Positions 53,671-63,379 of a DNA stretch of 64,000 nucleotides are shown one piece after another. The notes under the pieces are model-generated. The model saw only the letters and a list, made by a program, of their open reading frames with translations, ran no database searches and was not told the origin of the DNA. Made by a program: the position numbers and the translations under genes. The stretch covers positions 5,580,001-5,644,000 of the forward strand of contig OY294046.1 of the NCBI GenBank assembly GCA_958510825.1, given 5' to 3'. Within the stretch, counting starts at the first letter, position 1, and the number at the start of each line of letters is the position of its first letter. The stretch comes from Brachypterus glaber (taxonomy: Eukaryota; Arthropoda; Insecta; Coleoptera; Kateretidae).

Positions 53671-53712
53671 GCCAATACGCAGCAGAGAATGCCAACCTAC
53701 AAAAAACAAAGA
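53671..53712 (+). CDS. Putative 42-bp exon (assignment uncertain)
   Basis: It is bounded by CTATTTTTTTAG| and AAAGA|GTACGT. All three frames are open. In the phase used by the downstream exons it reads PIRSRECQPTKNK. In the phase left by exon 4 of the coiled-coil gene it reads QYAAENANLQKTK, which looks more like coiled coil. Its length is a multiple of three, so it could be a cassette. Confidence 0.45.
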
Positions 53713-53945
53713 GTACGTAACATTAACTATTTTTTTTTAGTGTCCGCAAAATTTAGATTTTCTAGGATTTATCAATTACGCGTATACCGTACAATAATTA
53801 TACCTAAGTAGTACTAGTTAGTACTTTAAGGTACCAAATGGTAATTGGTACTTGGTCACCCAAATGTAGCATAGTATTTCTAAACAAAATTGATTCCTAT
53901 TTAATATAATTATCAAAACTATTGCTACTTATATCGCACCCGTTA

Positions 53946-54445
53946 CAGAACTACCCCCCTCCCTCAGGGGGTGGAGTTAGAATTTTTTTATTATCAGATT
54001 CTCTTTCAGTCACCTTAAAAACCCTAATATACCAACTTTCACAAAAACTACCCCCCGCCCCTTTGGGGGTGGAGTTAGAATTTTTTTATTTTCAGATTCA
54101 CTTTCAGCAACCTCAAAAACCCCAATATACCAATTTTCACGAAAACTACTCCCACCCCTCAGGGGGTGGATTTAGATTTTTTTTATTATCAGATTCAGTT
54201 TCAGCAACCTCAAAAACCCTAATATACCAGTTTTCACGAAAACAACCCCTCATCCCTCAGGGGGTGAAATTAGAAAAAAATTATTATCAGATTCATATTC
54301 GTCGACCCCAAAAACCCCTATGTACCAATTTTGACGAACATATTGAAAATTATTTACCCCCTCACCCCTGCGGGGAGAGAAAAAATTTATTATTAGATTC
54401 AACTTCAGCAACCTTAAAAACCCCTATATAGCAATTTTCAACTTT
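53946..54445 (+). repeat. Minisatellite, about five units of ~95 bp
   Basis: Each unit carries CCCCTCAGGGGGTGGAGTTAG, TTTTTTTATTATCAGATTC, TTTCAGCAACCTCAAAAACC and ATATACCAATTTTCACGAAAA. A long open frame (54431 end) is a by-product of the unit structure. A degenerate reverse-complement set of units lies at 35150-35470. Confidence 0.9.
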
Positions 54446-54733
54446 TTGTAAAAAAATGTATTTTTCCCCATTTTCACCCATTGCCGCACCCCAATGTTCA
54501 CCAAAAACAATCTCGAGCGAGTACTTTTTTCCATAGAATAACTTCCACTGAACACCTTCTTTAACCCTGTATCTATGTCTCTAAAAAAGCGGAAACGCTA
54601 AATTTTTATTTTAGACCCCAAAACACCCTGCATATAAAACGGCTAACTCCAAACATGCAATTTTTCTTAACGGAAAACAAAATATTAGCAAGGACAGAAA
54701 TTTTTAATTTTAAACAAAATTATAAAAATATTA

Positions 54734-55138
54734 ATTTATTATTCCATCAATCTATTTTCCAATCATCGTACAGAGTGATATTGGTAGACTGACAGTTTCG
54801 GGCTGCTGGCCCTCTTCAGTACCAAGAGTCAACTCTGCACGCTGATTAAGAAAACGTTTTTAGACTTTACTCGCAAAAGGAATATAGCCATTAGATTGAT
54901 GTAGACTTGTGCGCCATCTATTTCTAGATGTAGACAACTACTCATACCTCTCCTAATCTGGAGACTTTGAATGGTAAAAATGTCTAAAAAAAAAAATGGT
55001 AAAAATGTCTAAAAACGTTTTCTTAATCAGCGTGCAGAGTTGACTCTTGGTACTGAAGAGGGCCAGCAGCCCGAAACTGTCAGTCTACCAATATCACTCT
55101 GTACGATGATTGGAAAATAGATTGATGGAATAATAAAT
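54734..55138. mobile_element. Palindromic element, ~130-bp arms, upstream of cathepsin L
   Basis: The arms start ATTTATTATTCCATCAATC and include GTACAGAGTGATATTGGTAG, GACAGTTTCGGGCTGCTGGC and CTTGGTACTGAAGAGGGCC. The two arms look almost perfectly complementary around a ~140-bp centre. It ends about 260 bp before the cathepsin start codon. Confidence 0.9.
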
Positions 55139-55294
55139 AAAATATTAGCACTTAAAATTCCTGGATATGTGACAATATATGATAATATATGTCGTAATTA
55201 TTACCAAGAATACTAAAACAATGGGTAAAATCTGGATAAAATGAGTCAGATTGTATTATTTTATAAGATAAAAAGTCAAGAAGATAAAACATCA

Positions 55295-55302
55295 TATAAA
55301 AG
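55295..55302 (+). promoter_or_regulatory. TATA box for the cathepsin L gene
   Basis: TATAAAAG lies about 100 bp upstream of the start codon, a good distance for a short 5' UTR. GATA words (AAGATAAAAAG, AAGATAAAAC) lie just upstream. GATA factors often drive gut enzyme genes in insects, so this fits a digestive protease but is inference. A second TATATA at ~55369 is too near the ATG. Confidence 0.55.
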
Positions 55303-55395
55303 ACGAAAAGTTGTTAATAATTTTTTAATTAACCTAACGATATTAAAGTTAATTAGTAAAAATTACCTATATATAGTAAAAATACCCATAACGCC

Positions 55396-55479
55396 ATGAA
55401 AGTTTTAATATTTTTGCAACTTACCTTGTGTGTGATAGTATTTGCTCAGGATTTAAAGGATCATTGGAAAATATTTAAG
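55396..55479 (+). CDS. Cathepsin L exon 1: signal peptide
   Basis: It has 28 codons, ending KDHWKIFK before AAG|GTAAGT. The hydrophobic core [14 protein letters not shown] is clear. The start is the first ATG after the TATA box. Confidence 0.93.
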
Positions 55480-61377: not shown

Positions 61378-61440
61378 CACATCAAGAATAAGCACATCTA
61401 GACCTTGTTATACGCCAAGTCCAATAACGTACAATTGTTG
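61378..61440 (+). CDS. Putative 63-bp exon, phase 2
   Basis: It is bounded by CGTTTATTTTAG| and TTGTTG|GTATGT. Only phase 2 is open: TSRISTSRPCYTPSPITYNC. It is Ser/Thr/Pro-rich. The joins on both sides keep the frame. Confidence 0.65.
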
Positions 61441-61500
61441 GTATGTTTATGAGTGTTATTTTGATCTATCAACCATATTAAATACTTTACTTGATTTTAG

Positions 61501-61545
61501 CTCATATATTTCAAAAAATATAGATAAAACAATAGATAAACAAAG
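61501..61545 (+). CDS. Putative 45-bp exon, phase 2
   Basis: It is bounded by CTTGATTTTAG| and CAAAG|GTAAGT. Only phase 2 is open: SYISKNIDKTIDKQ. The intron before it is just 60 bp. Confidence 0.65.
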
Positions 61546-61919
61546 GTAAGTGAACCTACAAGTTTTAAATCATAGGTATTATAGTAAATTCAAGTCTAAG
61601 ATGCAGTGGAAGTAAACAAAAGAATCGCACAGGCGGCAGGGGGCGCCTGATTTTTTTTGGACACTCGAATATTGCGAGAGTAGGGATGTAGAAAATTAAA
61701 CAGGTCAGTACGTGAGCACTTGCGGTGAAGCATATAATGCATTTCATTGGACCGTCATATAGAAATATTTTGTTTTGAGTCCTACCCTGTCACTAAATCC
61801 GTTGTAATCACGTGCGTTTGTTTATTATTACTGCATCTTGAAGTTGAATATAATATAGACCAGGCGGTATCTGTTTCAAAACACCCATGTTTGGGTAGTG
61901 TCCTACATTTTTGGATCAA

Positions 61920-62779
61920 CCCAGTCAACACAAATACATGGCAGGAACATAGCAGGTACCTACATAACCACTGTTCTATGTGATGTTGCAGACATGTAAT
62001 TTTTATAGTCCATGTATAGTCCTTGGACTTTAACAATTCCGCCTCAAGTTATGTATCAGCTACATAACATGCTACATATCAGATACATACTAGGTACATA
62101 ACAATAAAAGTAGGCGTTTCCGAATTTTACTTGTTATGGAGTGCATCATAGATTTAGACATGCTGAACATTTTTACGTCTTTTTGATAAACCTAGTAATT
62201 AAAGTATATAAATATTATATGTAGCATCCATCAGGCAAAATTCTTAAACGATGTGCATTTTTACTGTGAAAGCAAACTTTCTACCAGGCTTAAAAATCAT
62301 GGGCCACATAAAAAGTCAATTTTTAGAGAAAAAATAATTATTTAAAAAAAATATATATATATTTTATTTTTTTGTCTAAAATTATCTAAAATCAGTTTAG
62401 TTGTCTAAAAATACATGCGTTTCTACTACTTAAGGGTAAAACTTTTATTATTAACAACAATTTTAAGAATATTAGTGATTCTAACCTATAAAAATTAAAA
62501 TAATATAGACGCCATATTTAGTATTGAATTCATAACATTTTATGTATCGTGTATGTTCTCGTACCATATATATGATACATAACATGCAATATTGCATGTT
62601 ATGTATCATACATATGTATGTTACATCTTATGTAATATGGCACATGTAACGTAAAAAATCTTTCTGTTATAGGGCATGTTATGTAGCATACATATGTATG
62701 TTATGTCTCATGTAATATGGCACATGTTACCTAAAAAATCTTTCTTTACCATGTTGCATCCATATATGTGCGGAGTGGG
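61920..62779. mobile_element. DNA element L, copy 2, uninterrupted
   Basis: It matches 9366-9676 plus 13894-14446 nearly base for base, including TAAATATTATATGTAGCATCC at the site where copy 1 carries the RTE insertion. Its ends are CCCAGTCAACACA and GCGGAGTGGG. Confidence 0.88.
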
Positions 62780-62798
62780 AATGGGTCCACAATATCAC

Positions 62799-62949
62799 TA
62801 TGGTCCGTTTCATCAAGCAAGATAGTAAATTAAAAATCGCACAGTGAATATTTTCAAAACAGATACAAAAATATACTATTCGAACCTGTTGTAAAAATAT
62901 TTACTGTGCGATTTTTAATTTACTATCTTTCTTGAAAAAACAGACCATA
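62799..62949. mobile_element. MITE with ~60-bp arms
   Basis: TATGGTCCGTTTCATCAAGC and AAGATAGTAAATTAAAAATC, GCACAGTGAATATTTT are mirrored on the right (TTACTGTGCGATTTTTAATT, CAGACCATA). It is about 150 bp and non-coding. Confidence 0.85.
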
Positions 62950-63313
62950 TAAATGACAATTTCACTATGCGCATAAAATAAACCAAAGGCTTCACTTTTT
63001 ATTTAACAAAATGTTGCAAAATCGAGAAGAAAATCGTTTTTTTTTTCTCCTTTTCGTTCATATATCTCTGGAACTTTTCATTTCAGACAAATGATGAAGA
63101 GGAAAAAAGGTTTTGTAATTGAATTTTATACATGATAAAATTAGTTGCAAATCGAAAAAATAATTATTATTATTGCAAAAATAGTAAAAATCACAAATCG
63201 CAATAAAAAAAAAAAACAAAGTCACACGTCGAATTGATAACCTCCTCCTTTTTGGAAGTCGGTTAAAAAGAGGCGCTTTTAGATCGAATCAAATAAAAAC
63301 TACTTTTTTTTAG

Positions 63314-63379
63314 GTCAGTAACTAAGGAGAAACAGCTAAAAAGTCAGACTATGGATGAACTGAGAACAATAACACAGAG
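63314..63379 (+). CDS. Putative 66-bp exon, phase 2
   Basis: It is bounded by CTTTTTTTTAG| and CAGAG|GTAAGA. Only phase 2 is open: SVTKEKQLKSQTMDELRTIT. The sequence is coiled-coil-like. Its intact donor indicates that the gene continues beyond the window. Confidence 0.7.

Follow-up and report, generated by a model that had tools for sequence, protein, structure and literature searches.

Phase-2 micro-exons downstream of a cathepsin L gene in Brachypterus glaber, a probable tail of the preceding coiled-coil gene

Introduction

Genes located within the introns of other genes have been estimated at about 6% of the genes of Drosophila melanogaster (PMC3786989). A survey of the same species gives 865 host genes for 1,651 nested genes, 727 of which are read in the direction of their host (PMC3890989). 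In fly nested pairs, host transcription is described as bypassing the polyadenylation signal of the nested gene while the donor site of the host is intact (PMC3890989). According to a comparison of five metazoans, same-strand overlap is under-represented with respect to a random model (PMC2330155). Genes made of runs of small exons are known from aphids, in which the bicycle genes, expressed in the salivary glands, are reported to contain many small internal exons, almost all of them of phase 2 (PMC9168663).

A chain of small exons of the same phase was followed up here in a 64,000-nt stretch of the beetle Brachypterus glaber (contig OY294046.1), referred to below as the window. These small exons are probably real coding sequence forming the tail of a coiled-coil gene, the transcript of which would span a cathepsin L gene and a broken copy of it.

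The coiled-coil gene and its surroundings

The coiled-coil gene lies on the plus strand. Its proposed first coding exon (37167-37184) encodes MIEPEK from an ATG, ends at a GTAAAT donor and joins the frame of exon 2 (37362-37562, 201 nt, phase 0). Exon 3 (44651-44750, 100 nt) and exon 4, a 2.9 kb coiled-coil exon that starts at 45090 or 45104 and stops at 48019, both end in phase 1, and exon 5 (49110-49869) closes with an AGG-TAG frame end placed at the phase-2 donor AG/GTAGAA. The model has a loose end between exons 3 and 4. Indeed, the better acceptor, at 45090, needs phase 2 whereas exon 3 ends in phase 1, and the acceptor that fits phase 1, located 14 nt downstream at 45104, scores -5.6. 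Within exon 4, internal repeats of 69-80% identical DNA (45981-47109) suggest an expansion of the rod via duplication.

Head to head with this gene stands an ING3-like gene of several exons (28453-36850, minus strand), identified by PF12998 (24.3 bits for a cut-off of 23.9) and by PDB 8cok, inhibitor of growth protein 3 (E 1.6e-9). Its start codon is found about 330 bp from the MIEPEK exon at 37167.

A short tandem repeat of about 700 nt (4524-5245) shows up through extended, repetitive frames that are open on either strand, and a Tc-type transposase carrying HTH_Tnp_Tc3_2 is encoded at 23035-23880 (plus). Two further elements were named by sequence alone, a LINE-like reverse transcriptase frame (10002-13800, plus) and a gypsy-type element (37980-43560, minus) with a long open frame. 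The latter fills intron 2-3 of the coiled-coil gene (37563-44650), an intron of about 7 kb occupied by transposable elements. It is bounded by two identical 228-nt copies (37980-38207 and 43333-43560), adjoins both halves of an older repeat and looks recent.

The cathepsin L gene and its broken copy

An intact plus-strand frame for a cathepsin L of 325 aa (55396-58567) separates exon 5 from the small exons of the tail. Its three exons (55396-55479, 55540-55878 and 58013-58567) join without an internal stop. The Pfam cut-offs are passed by the Inhibitor_I29 domain (PF08246, 51.4 bits for a cut-off of 24.4) and by Peptidase_C1 (PF00112), which scores 222.8 and 44.2 bits on two of the exons (cut-off 20.7). 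The best PDB match is 3qt4, a cathepsin-L-like midgut cysteine proteinase that we take to be a beetle enzyme. The I29 propeptide and the papain domain are present in both, and the frame here is intact. The protein itself is nothing unusual, and it is of interest by its genomic place alone.

The gene is followed on the same strand by a broken partial tandem copy (58864-59259) that corresponds to cathepsin exon 3 and its 3' flank, 78% identical over 324 aligned columns, the flank being copied too. The earlier note had suggested that, if all the exons join, both gene and copy would lie in one same-strand intron of the coiled-coil gene; phase and donor are compatible with such a join, which is likely.

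The small exons

Splice sites were scored as log-odds on acceptor and donor matrices entered by hand. The five small exons initially proposed are all preceded by AG and followed by GT at the positions first given. Their lengths are divisible by three, and phase 2 is open in each of them. For the last three of them, phase 2 is the sole open frame, as claimed. The first two are less constrained, phase 1 being open as well in 60132-60164, and all three phases in 53671-53712.

All are on the plus strand. The best-supported one is 63314-63379 (66 nt, SVTKEKQLKSQTMDELRTITQ), with an acceptor of 5.8 and a donor of 6.2, and the gene to which it belongs would have to run on past this exon, and probably past the end of the window. 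Exon 61501-61545 (45 nt) combines an acceptor of 2.1 with a donor of 7.7, and 60132-60164 (33 nt, QISEKTPSRD) a weak acceptor (-1.1) with a strong donor (8.8). Exon 61378-61440 (63 nt) has an acceptor and a donor of 2.1 each and the lowest coding score in the chain. The strong splice sites attributed to all these exons are thus confirmed for 63314, partly for 60132 and 61501, and not for 61378 and 53671. On the plus strand from 48020 to 64000, eight donors score at least 5; three of them end small exons and one is that of cathepsin.

The doubtful fifth exon, 53671-53712 (42 nt, acceptor 3.2), was dropped as a phase-2 exon and is unsupported as a member of the chain, its score being higher in phase 1 (read as QYAAENANLQKTK) and its donor weak (0.7). 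An additional candidate overlooked by the earlier reader, 59609-59701 (93 nt, phase 2), joins the chain in the composite scan. It reads ATKSKKSDGCSKSACEESRGKMALTKRPNS and has modest sites, with an acceptor of -2.2 and a donor of 0.9. Since 53671 is unsupported, the enclosing intron would not measure about 6.4 kb, as first estimated, but 9.7 kb (49870-59608, 9,739 nt), if the tail joins exon 5.

Comparison with background

When simply counted, symmetric phase-2 candidates are not unusually numerous, with 7 on the forward and 9 on the reverse strand for a simulated mean of 4.1 (SD 2.3), and their number shows no excess over simulation, over the reverse strand or over other stretches of the window. 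Candidates were also ranked by a composite score adding splice and codon scores, with known coding sequence masked. Two codon models were used, one derived from the exons of the coiled-coil gene and of cathepsin, the other from transposon frames. Among the 373 frame-candidates of both strands, 63314 and 61501 occupy ranks 1 and 2 with the first model and ranks 2 and 3 with the second. Exon 60132 is placed 7th and 5th, respectively, and 61378 ranks poorly (193rd or 41st). A plus-strand scan of 49880-64000 that left out repeats and the exons of cathepsin gave, as phase-2 candidates reaching at least 4.5 by at least one codon model, 59609, the five exons initially proposed, 61378-61545 as one fused exon and a stretch of 18 nt at 52141.

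Four settings were compared with known coding sequence masked. In three of them, no simulation out of 60 matched the best plus-strand chain; in the remaining one, the laxest (penalty 4, transposon codon model), 2 out of 60 did. When repeats were masked in addition, 63314, 61501 and 60132 became the top three symmetric plus-strand candidates in 25.1 kb, all in phase 2 and all inside 3.3 kb. The chain score was then reached in none of 600 simulated sequences of the same two-strand length as the masked scan, at either penalty, the masked repeats being those found within the window, so that repeats without a second copy there stay unmasked. A penalty of 5 gives a four-exon chain (59609, 60132, 61501, 63314), whereas a penalty of 7 gives three exons, without 59609. 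Exon 61378 is outside the chain tested in these 600 simulations, and its membership rests on its single open frame and its place.

Self-comparison of the window indicates that no small exon overlaps any repeat. Three stretches that entered chains in a scan without repeat masking (57776-57802, 56622-56714 and 61899-61955) lie in or touch repeats and were dropped. Segment 51652-51750 (minus), third in one scan, is part of a GGAACTC-like repetitive sequence. A comparable earlier scan, which serves as a positive control, ranked first the still unmasked 34573-34761 (minus). We take this segment to be an ING3 exon by comparison with human ING3 and from a weak match to the end of the ING profile in Pfam (E 0.05, under the cut-off). 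Both minus-strand segments, 51652-51750 and 34573-34761, were masked by hand before the 600-simulation test and are outside the plus-strand chain. The chain of phase-2 micro-exons is thus retained with one extra member (59609-59701) and without 53671. It is very probable that the small exons are genuine, most clearly so for 60132, 61501 and 63314.

Searches for relatives of the protein with queries lacking exon 59609 found none among 4044 candidates (E 0.01), 1244 candidates (E 1) and 7985 candidates (E 0.001, those sharing most words being scored). The tail peptide including 59609 has no match in Pfam or PDB. Exon 5 matched nothing in viral contigs, nor did exon 4 in bacterial and archaeal contigs, collections unlikely to contain a gene of an insect. 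Among the papers listed in literature searches on nested cathepsin L in beetles and on phase-2 microexons in insects, none concerns this locus.

Junction of the tail with exon 5

Exon 5 is able to donate in phase 2 between 49869 and 49870 (AG/GTAGAA), as the earlier note had proposed, and the phase of the tail exons is compatible with this donor. The site is weak, with a score of 0.18. A better-scoring donor within exon 5, at 49652 (2.5), is of phase 0 and incompatible with the tail. The frame of exon 5 ends in AGG-TAG, with the TAG at 49871, exactly at this AG/GTAG donor. Any exon of phase 2 with GTAA, GTAG or GTGA behind it necessarily runs into a stop at that very point when left unspliced. 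AGG accounts for 2 of the 1331 codons of the coiled-coil gene, and therefore a genuine end of the frame in AGG-TAG would be an uncommon accident. In composition, the final 30 residues of exon 5 (pI 12.0) resemble the tail (pI 9.7), both being basic and hydrophilic, whereas the rest of the exon is acidic (4.5). A long intron filled with transposable elements would also have a parallel in this gene, namely intron 2-3 of about 7 kb. AATAAA signals occur after the TAG, at 50523 and 50800, so that a 3' end is possible there. A long hairpin element (49883-50764) begins about 13 bases past the donor and stop of exon 5.

Taken together, the most economical and best reading is that the tail probably continues the coiled-coil gene. 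Both the transcription of the small exons and their joining to exon 5 are predicted from the DNA.

Alternative explanations

The small exons could instead belong to a separate gene starting downstream of cathepsin, for instance with an exon 59562-59701 that opens with an ATG, and continuing past the window, while the coiled-coil gene would stop at the TAG at 49871. This is rather unlikely. The putative initial exon scores 7.3, ends in phase 2 and is the only non-cathepsin one above 2.0 among 20 initial-exon candidates (plus strand, 49880-61300), and a separate gene would also suit the weak donor of exon 5 and the AATAAA signals beyond its TAG. However, this ATG spans the boundary of one of the 11-nt arms of an inverted repeat (59466-59476/59563-59573, 91% complementary) in an apparent small element and may thus be derived from a transposable element. 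Moreover, a separate gene leaves the AGG-TAG coincidence unexplained and does not account for a tail composition resembling that of the end of exon 5.

It is decidedly unlikely that the small exons are unexpressed, chance splice-like sites in AT-rich DNA filled with transposable elements, the coiled-coil gene then ending at 49873. The background level of the plain symmetric phase-2 count agrees with chance, as do the low scores of 61378 and 53671 and the 2 of 60 simulations that match the chain at the laxest setting. Taken one by one, comparably good exons also arise in simulation, since of 600 runs, 5 contained a best exon of at least 19, 30 a second of at least 13 and 128 a third of at least 10. 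Chance nevertheless produced the whole chain score in none of the 600 simulations with either penalty, and it has to place the three best plus-strand candidates in one cluster and in one phase. Within the preferred reading, in which the small exons end the coiled-coil gene, 61378-61545 could be a single exon of 168 nt rather than two exons and a 60-nt intron. Phase 2 is open throughout this segment, which reaches a composite score of 9.8 under the transposon codon model. This falls to just 0.3 with the other codon model. The intervening 60 nt begin with the donor GTATGT and end with the acceptor TTTTAG, and their translation would be hydrophobic, in contrast to the tail. The fusion is unlikely.

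Proposed mechanism and significance

If the tail does belong to the coiled-coil gene, the gene starting at about 37167 would end in a Ser/Thr/Lys/Arg-rich sequence, and its primary transcript would traverse the complete cathepsin L gene and the broken partial copy. Splicing would lead from the exon 5 donor (AG/GTAGAA) to 59609, 60132, 61378, 61501, 63314 and onward. As all junctions of the tail are of phase 2, any tail exon could be skipped with the frame kept. Cathepsin L is presumably transcribed from its own promoter. When the donor of exon 5 is recognised, the polyadenylation signals of cathepsin would be ignored as intronic, a suppression assumed here by analogy with fly nested genes. When exon 5 is left unspliced, the stop at 49871 would be met immediately and a short form devoid of the tail would result. 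A far more speculative extension, which we regard as very improbable, is a coiled-coil gene with two ends, the exon 5 stop on the one hand and freely mixed phase-2 cassettes on the other hand, in which the tail carried by the host protein could depend on how active the nested protease gene is.

Were the proposed structure true, the end of a large coiled-coil protein could escape gene finders, which would call the cathepsin L gene intergenic, and the locus would offer a natural test of host transcripts that ignore a nested polyadenylation signal. The finding is mainly one of annotation, as genes inside introns are common in insects.

Comparison with known systems

The run of small exons, all of phase 2, is reminiscent of the aphid bicycle genes. 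Bicycle genes are recognised by small internal exons, nearly all of phase 2, whereas the run described here would close a gene whose coiled-coil exon 4 extends over 2.9 kb and whose earlier junctions differ in phase, with phase 0 at the end of exon 2 and phase 1 at the ends of exons 3 and 4. No evidence for a kinship with bicycle genes was found.

The locus is closer to the same-strand nested genes of the fly, as a complete multi-exon gene would lie in one host intron and the host transcript would have to pass the polyadenylation signal of the nested gene. It differs from them by the broken tandem copy that accompanies the nested gene and by a host join deduced here from sequence. The earlier note considered such nesting unusual; given that 727 of the 1,651 nested genes counted in D. 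melanogaster share the direction of their host (PMC3890989), the arrangement is rather ordinary. In view of the under-representation of same-strand overlap reported for five metazoans (PMC2330155), it is not a favoured one either.
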